Positions 6,585 to 16,038 of a stretch of 54,201 nt of DNA are shown here, piece after piece. A program made the translations under genes and the position numbers. The stretch spans positions 1 through 54,201 of the forward strand of contig JAISAH010000008.1 in NCBI GenBank assembly GCA_031266805.1, given 5' to 3'. Origin of the DNA: Gracilibacteraceae bacterium. Its GTDB lineage: Bacteria > Bacillota > Desulfitobacteriia > Desulfitobacteriales > Syntrophobotulaceae. Positions within the stretch are counted from its first letter, which is position 1; each line of letters begins with the position of its first letter. The notes below the pieces were generated by a model that was not told where the DNA came from, made no database searches, and worked only from the letters and a program-made list of their open reading frames with translations.

Positions 6585-6722
6585 GGATGGAATGGATGCA
6601 CGGGCGTAGGCGGCGTCCTCGACGCACCGCCTGACCCTGGGAGATGGATTCCGGCATAAAGTCAGGAGGGCGGAGAGCCGCGAGAAAAACAAAGAAAGGT
6701 AATAAAGGAAGGTATAATTGCA

Positions 6723-9700
6723 ATGAAAACTGACGAACAAAACGTGAACAGATCCCAGCCGGTCCCGCCGGGACCGCGCCGCTCCAAAGCGGAAAAAATG
6801 TTTTCCTTGGTATTGTCTATTTTGGTACTGATCGCCATGATCCCGGCCCCCCTCTACGCGGATGATCCGCCCCCTGTGCGAACGACGAAGACGGCGGAGC
6901 GGGTCGGGGAAAACCTGTGGAAAGTGACATTGAATTTGGAAGGCGATATGACGACAGTCAAACAGCCGCTGGATGTTATGCTGGTGCTGGATATATCCGG
7001 TTCTATGACCACCAATCGCATGACCGCCATGAGGACTGCCGCAGAGAACTTCGTTACTCAACTGGTGGGTTATAAAAACAGCGGTGCCTTAGATGACGTG
7101 CGCGTCGGCGTTGTGAAATTTGAAAGCACTGCCAGTTATGTTCCGGCAGGTACGGGAATAACACCCATTGATTCAGCGCACATGACAACAATAGATGCGA
7201 TGTTAAATGGTATTAAAACTTTGAGCAGTGGCGGTGGAACTCGTATTGATAGGGCCATTGAATTGGCAGACGATCAATTGCCACAAAGCAACCGTTCCCG
7301 ATATATTGTGCTGATGAGTGACGGTGAGCCGACCCCAGGCTATGATGACGAAGCAGAGACGGCCGCTACAAATTATAAAAATACTGGCGGCCATCTGATT
7401 ACTGTTGGATTGGATTTAGCGGATAATTCTGCGGGCGCGAAATTCCTCAACAAAATTCATAATGCCGGCTATTACAATGCCAATTCCAGCGGCAGCAACC
7501 TCACTCAGGTTTTTACCAATGTACTCACAAATATCATAGAAAACACCCCTGTCATCGCGAACGCTATTGTGACCGACCCCCTCGGCCCTGCTTTCAAATA
7601 TGTGGATAGAAACGGCAACAATGCGATTGACGCTGGGGATATCAGAACTTTCAACCCTGACGATCCCGCGAAATATGCCGGCGTAGCGTCGCTGCAAAAC
7701 AGCAACCGGCAGATAAAGTGGGAATTTACCGAAAAAATCGCGAAAGCGACGATGGAATATTATGTAGAGTTGATCGACCGGAACAACCCTGCTTACCATA
7801 ATGTACTCCTGCCCACCAACGGCAATACGACTGTGGAATACACCTTGATAGATAATACCGAAGGGGATCAGACGTTCCCTGAACCGGTGGCCTCTTATGG
7901 CATGGGACATCTGACCGTCGCCTACGGCAACAATGTGACCGGCGCTCCGGGGCCGCAAACTTACGGAGCGGAAAGCGACTGGAACACAAATACCAGATTT
8001 ACTTTTAACGCGCCGGCGGCAATCCCCGGATATGAACTGGCCTCCATAAGCCTGAACGGCACGGAAGTGCAGATCGCTTCGGGCGGCGGTCTGACCAGCA
8101 TAACCTGGACTGACGAAGATATCACGACGGCAGTTGTGACGCCGGACAGCGACCTGACGGACCGTTTCGCCCCCGCCGCTGACGGATCGGGACTGATCTC
8201 CATGCCCGTGCCGGCCGGCGACCTCGTTATCACTTATAATTACGTTTCGGTCATCTTTGACATCACCGAACAATACAGAGACGCGGCTGGCGCCGTGCTG
8301 TTGTCCGATACGACCGTGAAGGTCAACAAAAATTCGGATCACAATTTTACAGTCCCGGACGATATCACGGGCTATGTGCCCGTCGGCTATCAGATCGACA
8401 ACGGGCAGCAGCAGATTGAAACTACCGGATTTCCCAAGGATATCAAGAACACGATATCCAACGTGACGACCAACCACACCGTTACCTTCATATACGCGGA
8501 AGATAAAAACGGCGACAATATCCCCGATCCCGGCCAGAGTTTCACCATAACCGAGCATTATGACCTGTGGGATGAGAACAATAACCCTATTATAGGCGAT
8601 ATTCAGTCCCAAACGACGACTGTCGTGCCGACTGGTAATGGCGGTTCTTTTGACTACAAAAAAGACGCGCAGCCTATCACCGGCTATGTGGCTGTAGGTT
8701 ATCAAGCTGAGGATGTAGTTGAAGATGTATATCCGAAGCCGGTAACTATCACCATAGGCCAGGTGAAAACCAGCCAGCATGTGTATTTCTACTATAAATA
8801 TGATAAGAACAACAACGGCGTCCCTGACGACGACGAGAGCGAAAAATTCGCGATCAGCGAGACTTATGTCAGCGAAGACGGAACGGCGCTGAAAGCCGCG
8901 ACGACGACGGATCTGCCCTATGCGGACGGTTCTTTTGACTACAGTAAAGACGCGGAAGATATAACAGATTATGTAGCCATCGCTTACCAGGTGGATGGTG
9001 AGCCGCCGGTTCCGCTGAATACTTTCCCCGGCGCAGTCACGGCGAAGATACCTGAAGTCAAAGCCGCTCACGCCGTGAAGTTCACCTATAAGAACGACAA
9101 GAACAACAACGGCGTTCCGGACGAAGACGATCCCGACTTTTATGAGGTGTCGGCCTCTCTGGTCGGCCCGAACGGTCAGGCGTTTGCCGCTCCGGTGGAT
9201 AAAAATGGAAATCCACTGGATAATCCGCAGCGGTATACCGCCGATAAGAGCAACAGCTTCGCCGTTAACGAGCCGGCTCCGGGTGTACTAGACTATGTGG
9301 CGGTGAGCTACCAGTTTGACGGAAATGAAAACCTGGTCAAAGCCAATCAAGACTCCGTGACTGGTGTTTATGAGCAGCTAATCATCGTCCACGGACCCAT
9401 CGCGGCCGACCGGGCGGTGAAAGTCAATTATAAGGACGACAAGAACAACAACGGCGTCCCGGACGACGACAGCAAAGAAACATTCACGATTAGCGAGACT
9501 TATGTCAGCGAGGGCAATGCGGTGCTGAAAACCGCGACGACGACGAGTCTGCCCTACGCGGACGGTTCTTTTGACTACAGAAAAGACGCGCCGAATGATA
9601 TAACGGATTATGTAGCCGTCGCTTACCAGGTGGATGGTGGGCAGCCGGTTTCCCTTAGCGCTTTCCCTGGCACGGTCACGGCGGCGATAGACGGAGTCAA

Positions 9701-12700
9701 GGCCGCTCATACCGTGAAGTTCATCTATAAGAACGATAAGAACGATAACGGCGTCCCGGACGAAGAAGATCCCGGCTACACGGTGACGGCGACTTATGTC
9801 GACGAGGCCGGCCAAAATCTGACTTTGCCGAATAACGCGCCGAACCCGGAGACATTCCAAGCGGGCGATAACAGCACCGGGTTCAGCTTCAGCGAACCGG
9901 CGCCCGAACCTCCCGGTTATGTGGCGGTGAGCTATCAGTTTGACGACGGGAACCTGATTCCCAACATTCCGGATTCGGACGGCGTCTACGGGCAGCTGAC
10001 CATTGAGCACGGCCCCATCGCGGCTGACCGGACAGTGACGGTCAATTACGAAAAAGATCAAAACAACAACGGCAAGCCGGACGACAAGGAAAGCGATTAC
10101 ACGGTGACTGCGTACCTGATGGACGGAGCGCTGTCGGCGAACGGCGGCACAGCTATCGTGGATCCCAAGGCCCCCAATGGCGATCCGGTCCCGAATCCGA
10201 CCGCTTATCCCGCCCTCCAAAGCGCTAATTTCAATCTGTCGGAGCCGGCGCCGGTGATAGCGGACTATGTAGCTGTAGGCTATAAGATCGAAGACGGGAC
10301 CTTTATTCCCGGCGTGAAAAATCAAGTCACCGGGGCCTATCTGTCTCTGCAGATAGCGTACGACCATGTGCCCTCTAATTTGACGGCGGAAATAGTTTAT
10401 CTGACCGACAAGAACAATAACGGCATACCCGATGAAGGCGAAGCTGACTACAAAGTGACCGCGGATTATGTTGACGCGGCCGGCCTGACTCTGGCGGATA
10501 TCGGGGATAACGATACGGAATTCATCGTCACGAGCGCCATGGGCTTCGGTTTCAGCTACGAATTGAAGCCGGTGCCGAACTATGTGGCGGTGAGTTATCA
10601 GTTTGACGGAATCGGAGAACCTCTGATCGAGGCTGAGAAAGACGCGGCCGGCGCCTACCAGCCGCTGACCATTGAGCATGATCCGATTTCCGCTCCCCGG
10701 ACGGTGACGGTCAATTACAAGGACGACAAGAACAATAACGGCGTCCCGGACGACGGCGAAAAAGACTACAATATCCAGGCGAGTTATATTAACATCGACG
10801 CGGATGACCCCGGCGATAGTTACCTGAAATTACCAAACGACGCGCCGAACCCCCAGGATTTCCCTGTCAAGAGCGCCACAGGGTTCAGCTTCAGCGAACC
10901 GGCGTTGGATATACCTGATTATGTGGCGGTGAGCTATCAGTTTGTCGGAGACGGTGAACTTTTGATCGAAGCCACGAAGAACAACGAGGGTGTCTATAAC
11001 CAACTGATGATCGAGCATGACCCGATTTCCGCTAATAAGGAAGTAACGGTCAACTACAAGGAAGATAAGAACAACAACGGCAAGCCGGACGACGGCGACG
11101 GCGGCGTCGCGGAAGCGTACCTGATCACCGTAAATTATCAGGATAATGACGGCGATCCCCTCATTGACCCCGTTACCGGTCTGAACAAGCACGAAGAAGA
11201 TCTGCCCGGCGATGGTGGTTCCTTCGACTACACGGCTGAAGCGCCGCCGATAGAGGACTATGTGGCGGTCAGCTACACAGTGGATCCGGGAACCCCAGAG
11301 GCAAAAACCGGTGAAGGCGAGAGCTACGATTTTGAAGATGTGAAGATCGATCACACGATCATTTTCCACTACAAGGACGATAAGAACAACAACGGCGAAC
11401 CGGATGACGAGGAAGCCGGCTACGAAGTGAACGTGGCTTATCTTGACGAGGGCGGCCAAGCTCTGCCGGATATTGGCCATAATCTGGCGAAATTCCCCGT
11501 CACCAACATCACTGGGTTTAGTGTCAGCTACCCGCTGTGGCCGATAGTGGACTATGTGGCGGTGAGTTATCTGTTTGACGCTCCTGGGGAACAGGTGATT
11601 CCAGCCGAGCAGGACGACGAGACCGGCGCCTACAAACCGCTGATCATCGAACACGGCCCCATCTCGGCCGACATGAAAGTGACGGTCAATTACAAGGACG
11701 ACAAAAACAATAACGGCGTCCCGGACGACGACGACAGTGAAAAATTCACAGTCAGCGAGACCTATGTCAGCGGCGGCGCAGTGATACACGACCCGACAGC
11801 GACGGAGATGCCTGACGCGGACGGTTCATTCAACTACAGTAAAGACGCGGAAGATATACCGGATTATGTGGCTGTCGCTTATCAGGTCGACGATGAACCT
11901 CAGGTCGAACTGACTGCTTTCCCTAGCGCGGTCACAGCGAAGATAGATGAAGTCAAGGATCCTCATAACGTGAAATTCATCTACAAGGACGATAAGAACA
12001 ACAACGGCGTCCCGGACGACGACGACAGTGAAAAATTCACAGTCAGCGAGACCTATGTCAGCGAGGGCGACGCGACGCTGAAAGCCCCGACGGAGACGTA
12101 TATGCCCAATCCGGACGGTTCTTTCGACTACAGTAAAGACGCGGAAGATATACCTGATTATGTGGCCGTCGCTTATCAGATCGACGATGAGCCTCAGGTC
12201 GAACTGACTGCTTTCCCCGGCACGGTCACGGCGAAGATAGATGAAGTCAAGGGGCCGCACAACGTGAAATTCATCTATAAGGATGACAAGAACAACAACG
12301 GCGAACCGGACGACGGCGGCGGCAACGGCGGCAGCGCGGAAGCGTACAAGATCACCGTGATCTATCAGGACAAGAATGACGCAGCTCCTGTCGGCGCTCC
12401 GGCGACGCATATCGAAGATCTGCCTGGCGACGACGGCTTCTTTGACTACACGGCCACGGCCGTCCCGATAAAGGACTATGTGCCGGTCAGCTACACGGTG
12501 GATCCGGGGACTTCGGATGAGGAAACCGGCGACGGCGCGAGCTACAAGTTTGATGATGTGAAGATCGACCACACAATCATTTTCCACTACGCGGACGATA
12601 AGAACAACAACGGCACGCCGGACGACGAGGAAAAAGCCGGCTACACCATCACCGTGAATTATCTGGCCGCGGACAATAACAACGCCCCCCTTAACGACCC

Positions 12701-15143
12701 CGCTACCGGACAGCCGCCTCTCCCGGTGAAACTGCCTGGCGCGGACGGCTCCTTCGACTACACGGCCGCGGCGCCGCTGATAACAGACTATGTGGCGGTC
12801 AGCTACACGCTGGACGACGGGACGACGACGCTCGGCACGAGTTACGACTTCGACGATGTGACGGAAGATCACACCATCAGTTTCAACTATAAGGACGACA
12901 AGAACAACAACGGCGAGCCGGACGACGGCGACGACGGCAGTGGCAGCGGCGGCAGCGCGGAAAAGTACGAGATCGGCATGAGTTACCTGAACCAGAACGG
13001 TGATCCCATCGCGCTGGCGGACACGCATGATCTGCCGGAAGCGGACGGTTCCTTCGACTACACGGCCGAGGCGCTGCCGATAACAAATTATGTGGCGGTC
13101 AGCTACACGGTGGATCAGGGAATGCCGGGTGAAATAACTGACAGCGGCGTGAGTTATTTCTTCGACGACGTGAAAATCGATCACGCGATCATTTTCCACT
13201 ACGAGATCGATAATAACAACAACGGCGTCCCGGACGAGAACGAAGGCGACTACGTGATCAGCGCGGTCTATGTGGACGAGGGCGGCAATGAGCTTGACAG
13301 CCCGGCCCAGTTCACGGTGAAGGCCGACGACGGCTACAATTTCTCGCATTACGCGCCGACAGTCCCAGGTTATCTGGCGGCGGGCTTCCAATTCGACGGC
13401 TATGACTACGTCGGGGCGGGAACTATCAGTGGTACCGAGATTTTGGTCCAGCCGCTGACCGTTTTCCTGGACAGCGTCACGGCCAGTCTCGGCGTGACCG
13501 TCACCTATACGAAGGACGCGAACAACAACGGCGTCCCGGACACGGAGGAGAGCTACACTCTGACAGTGGAGCCCGTGGATGGCGGCGGCGACCCGATTGC
13601 CGGCCCGCAGACCGTGCCGGTGACGGGGGCGAACGATTTTGAGGTGGATATCCCCGCCCCGCCGCTGGATAACTATGTGCCGACCGGCTATCAGTTCGAG
13701 GGAGAAACGCCGGTGGAAGGCCAGAAGAACGGCGACGGCAGTTATCAGGAGCTGCATGTGACGCACGGCCCGCTGGACGCGGATACGACGGTGAAAGTTT
13801 TCTACGCGCCGGACTATAACGGCAATAATATCCCGGATATGCAAGAAGGCGACTACACGATCACGGAGACTTATATCTCCGACACCGGGACGGAGCTGGC
13901 CTCTCCGACGGCGGCTACGGCGAACAGTGGCAACGGTTACTATTACAGCCGGACGGTGAAGGACAATATCGCGGACTATATCGCCATCGGCTATCAGGTG
14001 GACAATCAGGCGGCGGTGATCTACACGAGCGGCTTCCCGCGGGATGTGCAGGTGCAGCTGACAAAAATTTCCTCCGACCGGAACGTCGCCTTCATCTACG
14101 CCCGCGACGTTGACGACAATGATATACCGGACAGTTTGCAGGCCGGCGAGTTCGGTTATACGATCCATTACTACAAAGAGTCTGTGGAAGCGGGCAATCT
14201 GCTGCTGGAGACCGTCGTGACCGACGTCAGTCTGGAGGACGTGATCCAACTGACGAAGGCGCAGCTGAACGCGGCCTGGCCGGCTTACGGCTACTATATG
14301 GGCGTGCAGCAGGGAGCGCCGGTGGTGATCATGAGCGGCGCGAACAATATCGACGTGGTTTACCAGCGCATTCTGATCACTGACCCGCGCCTGACGATCA
14401 CCCATTCCTACTATCGCTCCTCGGTCAACGCCCTTAATCTGGAAGGAACGCGGGACACGGACACTTTCACCGACCCGCTCGGCTACGGCCAGCAGGAGAT
14501 CAACTCTCTGCTCAAATATTCGCACGACGGCCGCAACTATTCGGCGAAATGGCCGGTCACGGTGGAAATGTACCCCATCATCTATATCGTGGAGGACGAC
14601 ACGCAGATCGGCGGCAGCGGTATATTTGAAAACGAAAACGAGTACGACGAGTACGACGTATACGGCGTGGAGGATGACGCCTATGCCGCAGATGCCTACA
14701 CGGTCGCCGACGATGTGGACGCCTATGAAGTCCTGATCGACAAGGACAAGGATTCGCCTCATGTCGTGACGCTGACGCTGAATTCCGGCGATACCCTGAA
14801 TGTTGACTATGGCTATATTTACCAAATCTCCGCTGATTACACGCGGCCCATCGTTCCGAACGGCGGCAGCGGCGGAGGTGGCGGCGGCGGCGGGACCGGC
14901 GGCGGAGGCGGGACCACGACCGTGCCGGATACCGACGTGCCGCTGGCGGTGATCCCAGAGGAAGTGCCGCCGCTCGCGCTCCCGCCTGAGGAAGATGAAG
15001 ACGATCTCACCAATATCGACGATGAAGATACCCCGCTCGTCCCGAATCCCAAGACGGGCGGCGACGTGACCAGCGCTTCCGGCGCGGCCTCTCTGATGGC
15101 CCTGCTGGGTGGGATCCTGATGAACAGACTGCGCAGGAAATAA
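6723..15143 (+). CDS. Giant surface protein: vWA domain, ~19 calcium-loop-linked repeats, NPKTG sorting signal
   Basis: The 2806-residue product has a signal peptide (hydrophobic core about residues 27-46, 'PLYADDP' cleavage region). A von Willebrand A domain follows, with MIDAS motif DISGS at 90-94 and 'RYIVLMSDGEPTPG'. About 19 modules of 85-100 residues come next, each with a beta-rich core ('DYVAVSYQFDG', 'DYVAVAYQVDG', 'DGSFDY') and joined by DxNNNGxPDD loops that look like calcium-binding EF-hand/thrombospondin-3 loops. The C-terminus has a poly-Gly spacer, a Pro/Glu/Asp-rich stretch, then NPKTG, a hydrophobic segment ('AASLMALLGGILM') and RLRRK. This is a sortase-type anchor with a non-LPxTG motif. 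It probably acts as a calcium-stiffened adhesin stalk with a vWA tip. AAGGAAGG precedes the ATG. No sortase gene is in the window. Confidence 0.9.
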   Translation: MKTDEQNVNRSQPVPPGPRRSKAEKMFSLVLSILVLIAMIPAPLYADDPPPVRTTKTAERVGENLWKVTLNLEGDMTTVKQPLDVMLVLDISGSMTTNRMTAMRTAAENFVTQLVGYKNSGALDDVRVGVVKFESTASYVPAGTGITPIDSAHMTTIDAMLNGIKTLSSGGGTRIDRAIELADDQLPQSNRSRYIVLMSDGEPTPGYDDEAETAATNYKNTGGHLITVGLDLADNSAGAKFLNKIHNAGYYNANSSGSNLTQVFTNVLTNIIENTPVIANAIVTDPLGPAFKYVDRNGNNAIDAGDIRTFNPDDPAKYAGVASLQNSNRQIKWEFTEKIAKATMEYYVELIDRNNPAYHNVLLPTNGNTTVEYTLIDNTEGDQTFPEPVASYGMGHLTVAYGNNVTGAPGPQTYGAESDWNTNTRFTFNAPAAIPGYELASISLNGTEVQIASGGGLTSITWTDEDITTAVVTPDSDLTDRFAPAADGSGLISMPVPAGDLVITYNYVSVIFDITEQYRDAAGAVLLSDTTVKVNKNSDHNFTVPDDITGYVPVGYQIDNGQQQIETTGFPKDIKNTISNVTTNHTVTFIYAEDKNGDNIPDPGQSFTITEHYDLWDENNNPIIGDIQSQTTTVVPTGNGGSFDYKKDAQPITGYVAVGYQAEDVVEDVYPKPVTITIGQVKTSQHVYFYYKYDKNNNGVPDDDESEKFAISETYVSEDGTALKAATTTDLPYADGSFDYSKDAEDITDYVAIAYQVDGEPPVPLNTFPGAVTAKIPEVKAAHAVKFTYKNDKNNNGVPDEDDPDFYEVSASLVGPNGQAFAAPVDKNGNPLDNPQRYTADKSNSFAVNEPAPGVLDYVAVSYQFDGNENLVKANQDSVTGVYEQLIIVHGPIAADRAVKVNYKDDKNNNGVPDDDSKETFTISETYVSEGNAVLKTATTTSLPYADGSFDYRKDAPNDITDYVAVAYQVDGGQPVSLSAFPGTVTAAIDGVKAAHTVKFIYKNDKNDNGVPDEEDPGYTVTATYVDEAGQNLTLPNNAPNPETFQAGDNSTGFSFSEPAPEPPGYVAVSYQFDDGNLIPNIPDSDGVYGQLTIEHGPIAADRTVTVNYEKDQNNNGKPDDKESDYTVTAYLMDGALSANGGTAIVDPKAPNGDPVPNPTAYPALQSANFNLSEPAPVIADYVAVGYKIEDGTFIPGVKNQVTGAYLSLQIAYDHVPSNLTAEIVYLTDKNNNGIPDEGEADYKVTADYVDAAGLTLADIGDNDTEFIVTSAMGFGFSYELKPVPNYVAVSYQFDGIGEPLIEAEKDAAGAYQPLTIEHDPISAPRTVTVNYKDDKNNNGVPDDGEKDYNIQASYINIDADDPGDSYLKLPNDAPNPQDFPVKSATGFSFSEPALDIPDYVAVSYQFVGDGELLIEATKNNEGVYNQLMIEHDPISANKEVTVNYKEDKNNNGKPDDGDGGVAEAYLITVNYQDNDGDPLIDPVTGLNKHEEDLPGDGGSFDYTAEAPPIEDYVAVSYTVDPGTPEAKTGEGESYDFEDVKIDHTIIFHYKDDKNNNGEPDDEEAGYEVNVAYLDEGGQALPDIGHNLAKFPVTNITGFSVSYPLWPIVDYVAVSYLFDAPGEQVIPAEQDDETGAYKPLIIEHGPISADMKVTVNYKDDKNNNGVPDDDDSEKFTVSETYVSGGAVIHDPTATEMPDADGSFNYSKDAEDIPDYVAVAYQVDDEPQVELTAFPSAVTAKIDEVKDPHNVKFIYKDDKNNNGVPDDDDSEKFTVSETYVSEGDATLKAPTETYMPNPDGSFDYSKDAEDIPDYVAVAYQIDDEPQVELTAFPGTVTAKIDEVKGPHNVKFIYKDDKNNNGEPDDGGGNGGSAEAYKITVIYQDKNDAAPVGAPATHIEDLPGDDGFFDYTATAVPIKDYVPVSYTVDPGTSDEETGDGASYKFDDVKIDHTIIFHYADDKNNNGTPDDEEKAGYTITVNYLAADNNNAPLNDPATGQPPLPVKLPGADGSFDYTAAAPLITDYVAVSYTLDDGTTTLGTSYDFDDVTEDHTISFNYKDDKNNNGEPDDGDDGSGSGGSAEKYEIGMSYLNQNGDPIALADTHDLPEADGSFDYTAEALPITNYVAVSYTVDQGMPGEITDSGVSYFFDDVKIDHAIIFHYEIDNNNNGVPDENEGDYVISAVYVDEGGNELDSPAQFTVKADDGYNFSHYAPTVPGYLAAGFQFDGYDYVGAGTISGTEILVQPLTVFLDSVTASLGVTVTYTKDANNNGVPDTEESYTLTVEPVDGGGDPIAGPQTVPVTGANDFEVDIPAPPLDNYVPTGYQFEGETPVEGQKNGDGSYQELHVTHGPLDADTTVKVFYAPDYNGNNIPDMQEGDYTITETYISDTGTELASPTAATANSGNGYYYSRTVKDNIADYIAIGYQVDNQAAVIYTSGFPRDVQVQLTKISSDRNVAFIYARDVDDNDIPDSLQAGEFGYTIHYYKESVEAGNLLLETVVTDVSLEDVIQLTKAQLNAAWPAYGYYMGVQQGAPVVIMSGANNIDVVYQRILITDPRLTITHSYYRSSVNALNLEGTRDTDTFTDPLGYGQQEINSLLKYSHDGRNYSAKWPVTVEMYPIIYIVEDDTQIGGSGIFENENEYDEYDVYGVEDDAYAADAYTVADDVDAYEVLIDKDKDSPHVVTLTLNSGDTLNVDYGYIYQISADYTRPIVPNGGSGGGGGGGGTGGGGGTTTVPDTDVPLAVIPEEVPPLALPPEEDEDDLTNIDDEDTPLVPNPKTGGDVTSASGAASLMALLGGILMNRLRRK
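8256..14140 (+). repeat. Tandem protein-coding repeat array inside the surface gene
   Basis: About 19 repeats of 255-300 bases, each ending in a gayaaraayaayaacggc-type stretch that encodes DxNNNG. Most are diverged. The units beginning near 11694 and 11988 (period about 294 bases) share an almost unbroken run through 'GVPDDDDSEKFTVSETYVS', indicating a recent duplication. Unit types alternate ('SETYVS' type, 'VNYQDN' type, 'ASYVD' type), so the array grew by copying blocks as well as single units. Confidence 0.85.
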
Positions 15144-15250: not shown

Positions 15251-15640
15251 TTAACCGCGCTCCCGCACAAACTTAGCCGCCGTCATAATAAACGGCTCAT
15301 CGGGATAATGACGGAGGTTGCCGGTTATCAAAGTTGCGCCGCACTCTTTGGCGACCTCGTAAAACATCTTGTCGTCTTCGTCCGCAAAAGATACAGCGCT
15401 CGGTTTGGCAACCACTGAGAGTCCGTCATTGCGGACGCGGTTAAGCACAGCGCCGATTTTTGAGCGCTTAAACGCGAACTGTGGCCGGTTCAACACGTCT
15501 CTGTACTCGGTCATGATCCGCGCGTCGTAACAGAGAATGATTTCCCCTTTGATAAACATCTCAAAGATTTTGGCGGGATTGCCCGGCGCCGACCACAGCG
15601 CCGAAACAAGTATATTGGTGTCTGGCACCACTCGTATCAT
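15251..15640 (-). CDS. PIN-domain toxin, COG1569 type
   Basis: The 129-residue product has the PIN-domain layout of putative toxin-antitoxin RNases. 'RVVPDTNILVSAL' carries the first acid residue (Asp7), 'MTEYRDVL' the second (Glu45), and 'FADEDDKMFYEVA' the third acid cluster (Asp87-90). The C-terminal 'ATLITGNLRHYP' is the usual end of this subfamily. PIN toxins are magnesium-dependent endoribonucleases, often cutting tRNA or rRNA. The gene overlaps the upstream antitoxin by 4 bases. All catalytic acids seem present, so it should be active. It lies convergent to the giant surface gene and shares the terminator region. Confidence 0.85.
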   Translation of the reverse strand: MIRVVPDTNILVSALWSAPGNPAKIFEMFIKGEIILCYDARIMTEYRDVLNRPQFAFKRSKIGAVLNRVRNDGLSVVAKPSAVSFADEDDKMFYEVAKECGATLITGNLRHYPDEPFIMTAAKFVRERG

Positions 15641-15900
15641 TTGGCTTTGCCGCGCTTTTCCCGGCGATAAGCCCGGATTTCGGCCTCAATTTCTTCTTCT
15701 GACAAAAAACCGCTCTCGGCGGCTTCTTCGCGCATACGGTTGAACTCCCGCATGAGTTTCGCCTGCCGAACGCCGGCTAAAGTCTCCTCGAAATTTCCTT
15801 CCGGTATATTCAATAACAGCGCTGTGGGTCTGCCGTTGTTGGTAACGACAATCTCTTCCTCGTGGCTCAGTTTATCCCAAATTTCTTTGGATAACAACAA
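15637..15900 (-). CDS. Phd/YefM-like antitoxin of the PIN toxin
   Basis: The frame encodes 'EEEIVVTNNGRPTALLLNIPEGNFEETL', the Phd-like DNA-binding/dimer core, followed by a charged helical tail ('EFNRMREEAAESGFLSEEE') that would wrap the toxin. It overlaps the PIN gene by 4 bases, the usual antitoxin-toxin arrangement. The start is uncertain: the frame remains open upstream into tRNA-Leu, and no ATG with a ribosome site is present. The TTG at 15900 is given as a minimal start. A start nearer 15954 at ATA is possible and would restore about 18 residues that the family normally has. Confidence 0.7.
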   Translation of the reverse strand: MLLSKEIWDKLSHEEEIVVTNNGRPTALLLNIPEGNFEETLAGVRQAKLMREFNRMREEAAESGFLSEEEIEAEIRAYRREKRGKAK

Positions 15901-15955
15901 AAGAGCCCAATTTTTGGACTCCCTTGTTGTGTAGACATATGTCTTATCGCTTATT

Positions 15956-16038
15956 TGGTGCGCTCGGAGGGACTTGAACCCCCACGGTTTCCCGCAAGAA
16001 CCTAAATCTTGTGCGTCTGCCAGTTCCGCCACGAGCGC
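15956..16038 (-). tRNA. tRNA-Leu (anticodon TAG)
   Basis: The reverse strand gives acceptor stem GCGCTCG/CGAGCGC with discriminator A and an encoded CCA. The anticodon stem CAAGA/TCTTG encloses the loop TTTAGGT (TAG at 34-36). There is a class-II variable arm (GGGAAACCG region) and a T arm with GGTTCAAGTCC. It reads CUA/CUN leucine codons. Confidence 0.95.

Follow-up and report, generated by a model that had tools for sequence, protein, structure and literature searches.

The window, a stretch of 54,201 nucleotides of Gracilibacteraceae DNA, contains a single uninterrupted open reading frame at 6723-15143 (+) that starts with ATG and encodes 2806 amino acids. The question raised by this locus is what so large a protein might do at the cell surface, how it would be held there, and what purpose the 19 Asn-rich loops along its length could serve. 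The reading we prefer, with a probability of roughly 0.8, is that of a giant cell-wall-anchored adhesin that is exported, anchored by a class B sortase, and composed of a MucBP-fold stalk with a vWA and GBS104-like head, the array of modules being subject to recombination. Its features, in window coordinates, are as follows.

6723..15143 (+): surface protein gene, 2806 aa, one open frame with an ATG start
6723..6860 (+): putative signal peptide, about residues 1-46 (RRSKAEK, then a hydrophobic core, ending ...PLYA), read from the sequence
6972..7514 (+): vWA domain with MIDAS (DISGS at residue 90, Thr near 172, Asp near 199); PF00092, 7.8e-15; SpaC of L. rhamnosus GG, 8.5e-12
7554..7889 (+): GBS104-like Ig domain, residues 278-389; PF21426, 42.1 bits, cut-off 26
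8256..8498 (+): module 0, the first MucBP-like module, with no preceding loop; module profile match, 2.2e-14
8502..14105 (+): modules 1-18, each a D-x-N-N-N-G-x-P-D loop plus a domain of predicted MucBP fold; loop pattern, module profile and predicted fold
11700..12281 (+): w11 and w12, the neighbouring modules that resemble each other most (87-88% DNA identity); TRF and alignment
14106..14132 (+): 19th loop, DVDDNDIPD, leading into a divergent C-terminal domain; from the sequence
14850..15044 (+): wall-spanning segment, Gly-rich, then Pro/acidic, ending IDDEDTPLVP; from the sequence, with a weak match to the NF033073 anchor model
15045..15140 (+): putative sorting signal, NPKTG with a hydrophobic stretch and RLRRK; from the sequence

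A preliminary description of this DNA had proposed a giant surface protein with about 19 loops and a vWA tip with an intact MIDAS, and both proposals hold: the frame runs from signal peptide to sorting signal with exactly 19 loops, and the vWA domain (PF00092 at residues 84-264, E = 7.8e-15) has its MIDAS elements in place as DISGS at residue 90, GGGT near 170, and MSDG near 198. By sequence, SpaC and its pilus-protein twin are the closest solved structures to the head (8.5e-12). The head itself, used as a query against the genome_contigs collection, found no relative, and its structure predicted without an alignment reached a pLDDT of 32 and was discarded. At the opposite end of the protein, the module profile gave no match to the domain that follows the 19th loop, and the NF033073 anchor model scored 31-38 bits on the wall-spanning segment, below its cut-off of 48. 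Neither promoters nor terminators turned up in scans around the gene. Its neighbours are a gene for a Bmp-family substrate-binding protein and a PIN/Phd-type pair; the latter, a PIN-domain toxin with a Phd/YefM-like antitoxin, occupies window positions 15251-16032 (-), directly downstream of the adhesin gene. A short dispersed repeat around GGATTCCGGCATAAAGTC lies upstream of 6723 (about 6645-6665) and seems to appear again in L012 and L033, in intergenic positions; in L012 it is found beside a false NPKTG reading. The DNA ligase encoded in the window shares 97% identity with its counterpart in Gracilibacteraceae assembly JAISEW010000132, and 82% with those of two more.

Our own profile search recognises 19 modules of about 100 residues each, 18 of them full and one without a preceding loop. 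Their identity to the first module is just 21-47%, and dN/dS between orthologous modules is 0.21-0.50. Compared by sequence profile with solved structures, the modules gave no significant match, and the Pfam MucBP profile gave weak matches in 5 of the 18 modules (best 2.7e-4) with none reported for the full-length protein. An AlphaFold2 model of a module pair, made from an input alignment of 17 pairs from the window, predicts small, all-beta domains with a pLDDT of 90.8, lowest at the loops. Foldseek ranked YwfG first for this model (9.8e-6); lower down, MUB repeats and MucBP domains appear alongside pilins and further surface proteins, and the structures matched include Mub-RV, lmo0835, and other MucBP structures. 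In VIA-align, most of the top 22 rows were likewise MucBP/Mub or similar surface-protein domains; nearly every alignment covered about 64-75 residues, and the Z scores of 6-8 are middling taken alone. Because the structural matches point consistently to one family, and the weak profile matches to MucBP agree with it, the models support a predicted MucBP (mucin-binding) fold for the modules.

Among 82 genomes of the class, the module family was found at E 1e-5 in only two, both of the genus, and a search of the module pair against viral contigs and plasmids, which is sensitive to close relatives only, found nothing. Weak matches in G014 and G022 (E 2e-4 to 4e-4) proved to be other giant repeat proteins lacking the DxNNNG loop and were rejected. 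Giant repeat proteins from another genus of the family (L039:3097-9135 and L040:4836-9242) have MucBP-like modules whose linkers end in PDGIED and not in DxNNNGxPD. A second surface protein, on contig C79 (L033:3389-5897), consists of BspA-type LRR_5 repeats and then, just where the contig stops, a single MucBP/DxNNNGxPD module, and the remainder of its array is absent from the assembly; modules of this type thus occur in another protein too.

The loop pattern D.[ND][NDG][ND]..PD occurs exactly 19 times in the protein at a spacing of 97-117 residues, whereas 2000 shuffles of the protein gave 0.02 matches on average and a maximum of two. Asp at position 1, Asp or Asn at position 3, and Asp at position 9 are present in all 19 loops, Gly at position 6 in 16, and an acidic residue at position 12 in 15. 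When 27 loops of two species are considered together, D1, P8, and D9 are invariant, N3 and N5 are nearly so, and G6 and an acidic position 12 are each found in 22; an extra acidic column (23/25) lies inside the domain at position 65. The preliminary description took the loops for calcium sites. Acidic residues are indeed present by sequence, and Asp1, Asn3, Asn5, Gly6, Asp9, and acidic 12 are EF-hand-like ligand positions, so the chemistry fits; against this, position 5 is Asn in 18 of the 19 loops, and a Pfam search of seven loops up to E 10 yielded no family, calcium-binding or other. In the published calcium-loop motif, Dx[DN]xDG is followed further along the chain by another acidic ligand, and Asn at position 5 is permitted in the published structural query, yet is not the rule (PMC3123361). 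The loops here fit that motif at Asp 1, Asp/Asn 3, Gly 6, and the later acidic residue, but not at the strict Asp 5. Because the ligand positions are kept, but position 5 is Asn and no Pfam family matches, we give about even odds that the loops bind calcium and stiffen the stalk.

Only slightly behind, at a little under one chance in two, is the alternative that the loops bind no calcium and are plain hydrophilic Asn/Asp/Pro linkers that set the spacing of the domains, and are stiff or flexible by themselves. Asn in place of the classic Asp at position 5 and the absence of any Pfam match among the seven loops favour this reading, and the first and middle loops have the lowest model confidence, in blocks of 70-80 compared with mostly 90+ elsewhere. 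Plain linkers account less well for the retention of D1, N3, N5, G6, D9, and acidic 12, the very positions of EF-hand ligands, while the rest of the modules diverges. If the loops do bind calcium, the MucBP fold would join the stalks that are stiffened at their joints by calcium. Cadherin-type linkers, which have the form DxNDNxP, were weighed as well; the loop spacing here differs from theirs by one residue. A further step, which we regard as doubtful, would make the protein a Gram-positive counterpart of the RTX adhesins, with a MucBP-fold stalk jointed throughout by Asn-rich, EF-hand-like calcium loops, a reach dependent on external calcium, and an evolution apart from both cadherins and RTX adhesins.

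Two neighbouring modules had been described as nearly identical over 294 bases, with variation in length between strains expected as a result. The neighbours w11 (11700-11987) and w12 (11991-12281) are certainly alike, but their DNA identity is 86.7-87.6% (87% by TRF), and their longest exact run is 61 bp. With a dS of 0.38, their synonymous distance is as large as that of orthologous modules of sister species (0.21-0.47), and the pair is therefore not a recent copy. The duplication is an old one, yet the array in general probably does turn over. In G001, a sister species whose contig ends within the array, each of the last six modules has its own counterpart among w13-w18, in unchanged order, and identity to the window protein over the C-terminal 345 residues is 88%. 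The module that precedes these six is of the w7/w10 type, however, and the one before it is closest to w14. Because the G001 array thus differs just upstream of the w13-w18 equivalents, this comparison of sequences supports a probable turnover of modules upstream of w13. Note that the module number could be wrong, because the assembly is fragmented and the genome yielded no 16S gene.

The C-terminus has the layout of a class B sortase substrate: an NPxTG-type motif (NPKTG at residue 2775), a hydrophobic stretch, and a basic tail (NRLRRK). The preliminary description regarded NPKTG as non-standard and its matching sortase as not encoded in this DNA. The motif is there, but it is not exotic, being documented for class B sortases (PMC11987632), and although no sortase lies within the window, the genome (G000; 3.38 Mb, 152 contigs, 95% complete) has three, on contigs C56, C67, and C72. 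The C56 sortase passes the class B equivalog model TIGR03064 (179.2 bits, cut-off 153.75), and its PDB matches are headed by C. difficile SrtB (2.8e-40), after which come further sortase B structures, among them 1rz2 (BA4783, B. anthracis sortase B) at 2.3e-35. Its gene (L036:6805-7635) stands alone among metabolic genes with no adjoining substrate, a position that suits a general function better than a dedicated one. The SrtB of B. anthracis recognises NPKTG, and does so best with Asp at P5 and P2' (PMC11987632), where the protein described here has Pro and Gly; C. difficile SrtB prefers SPKTG and PPKTG (PMC5118464).

Ten sites in the genome code for NPKTG, and three are C-terminal sorting signals, belonging to the window protein and to two further proteins on C62 (387 aa) and C69 (1812 aa); none of the three minus-strand sites is a sorting signal. 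In a set of 22 genomes, the NPKTG sites were read in frame and the tails judged one by one, because ribosomal protein L1 has an internal NPKTG and raw counts mislead. Sorting-signal-like tails numbered 3, 2, 1, 2, and 4 in the genus genomes G000, G001, G002, G003, and G004, respectively, a total of 12, compared with one across 17 genomes outside the genus. SrtB scored above cut-off in G000, G001, G003, and G004 and in none of the other genomes tested, G002 (86% complete) having an NPKTG tail and no SrtB match. The co-occurrence of tail and enzyme has a Fisher p of 0.001 over 20 genomes, uncorrected for kinship, and since the genomes are related, it counts as a single association at the level of the lineage, not as a series of independent cases. 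From the motif and this co-occurrence, we infer that the genome's class B sortase has NPKTG as its ordinary signal.

It is improbable that one of the other sortases anchors the protein instead. Those of C67 and C72 both have an intact sortase domain, but they pass the general sortase model only and no class model, both lie in element-like clusters with large SpaA/Cna-B-like proteins of their own, and across the genus the NPKTG tails track the class B enzyme. The two clusters (L034 and L035, respectively) are alike, with each sortase beside a SpaA/Cna-B-like protein of 1500-1760 aa, and L034 also has DNA methylase-like and VirB4-like genes. The class B enzymes of S. aureus and B. anthracis are each known to serve one haem protein (PMC11987632), whereas in this uncultured lineage the class B sortase seems to be a general surface-protein sortase, and NPKTG a genus-wide signal. 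Less probable still is a role as tip subunit in a sortase-assembled pilus in place of a single-chain stalk adhesin, since the likeness of its head to the tip pilins SpaC and GBS104 is set against a window without a sortase, neighbours (the Bmp-family binding protein and the PIN/Phd-type pair) that are not pilus genes, and a stalk of ~2000 residues that the protein brings itself.

The single-chain adhesin would then work as follows. The signal peptide would export the protein, and the class B sortase would cut at NPKTG and join it to peptidoglycan, as motif and co-occurrence suggest. About twenty domains of predicted MucBP fold in a row would form a long stalk that holds the vWA and GBS104-like head away from the wall, where the head, to judge from its family, could bind a target through the MIDAS metal. 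The acidic, Asn-rich loops would be the joints between domains, and with about even odds these joints may hold calcium in an EF-hand-like loop that limits bending. Recombination between alike modules would change the array, as the comparison with the sister species supports.

The known systems closest in build are the MucBP/Mub adhesins (YwfG of Lactococcus lactis, MUB of Lactobacillus reuteri, and lmo0835 of Listeria), which share the predicted module fold and are likewise large surface proteins with tandem domains; here, however, DxNNNGxPD loops join the modules and the anchor is NPKTG, and YwfG has a lectin domain where the window protein has its vWA head. The vWA tip pilins SpaC (L. rhamnosus GG) and GBS104 share a MIDAS-bearing vWA domain and, after it, a GBS104-like Ig domain, but the window protein lies outside any pilus gene cluster, with neither a backbone pilin nor a pilus sortase cluster beside it, and its stalk is a single chain. 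In the RTX adhesins MhLap, MpIBP, and SiiE, linker calcium stiffens tandem beta domains (PMC7493085). The window protein, with its tandem beta domains and acidic linkers, would be alike if its loops bind calcium, but it is not a member of that group, which is Gram-negative and has beta-sandwich modules with calcium seen in crystals, whereas calcium here is predicted. IsdC of Bacillus anthracis shares the NPKTG motif and a class B sortase (PMC11987632), but it is a haem transporter protein, whereas here several surface proteins would be the substrates and the sortase does not adjoin them. Set beside these systems, the protein is a very large yet ordinary sortase-anchored adhesin of a known kind.
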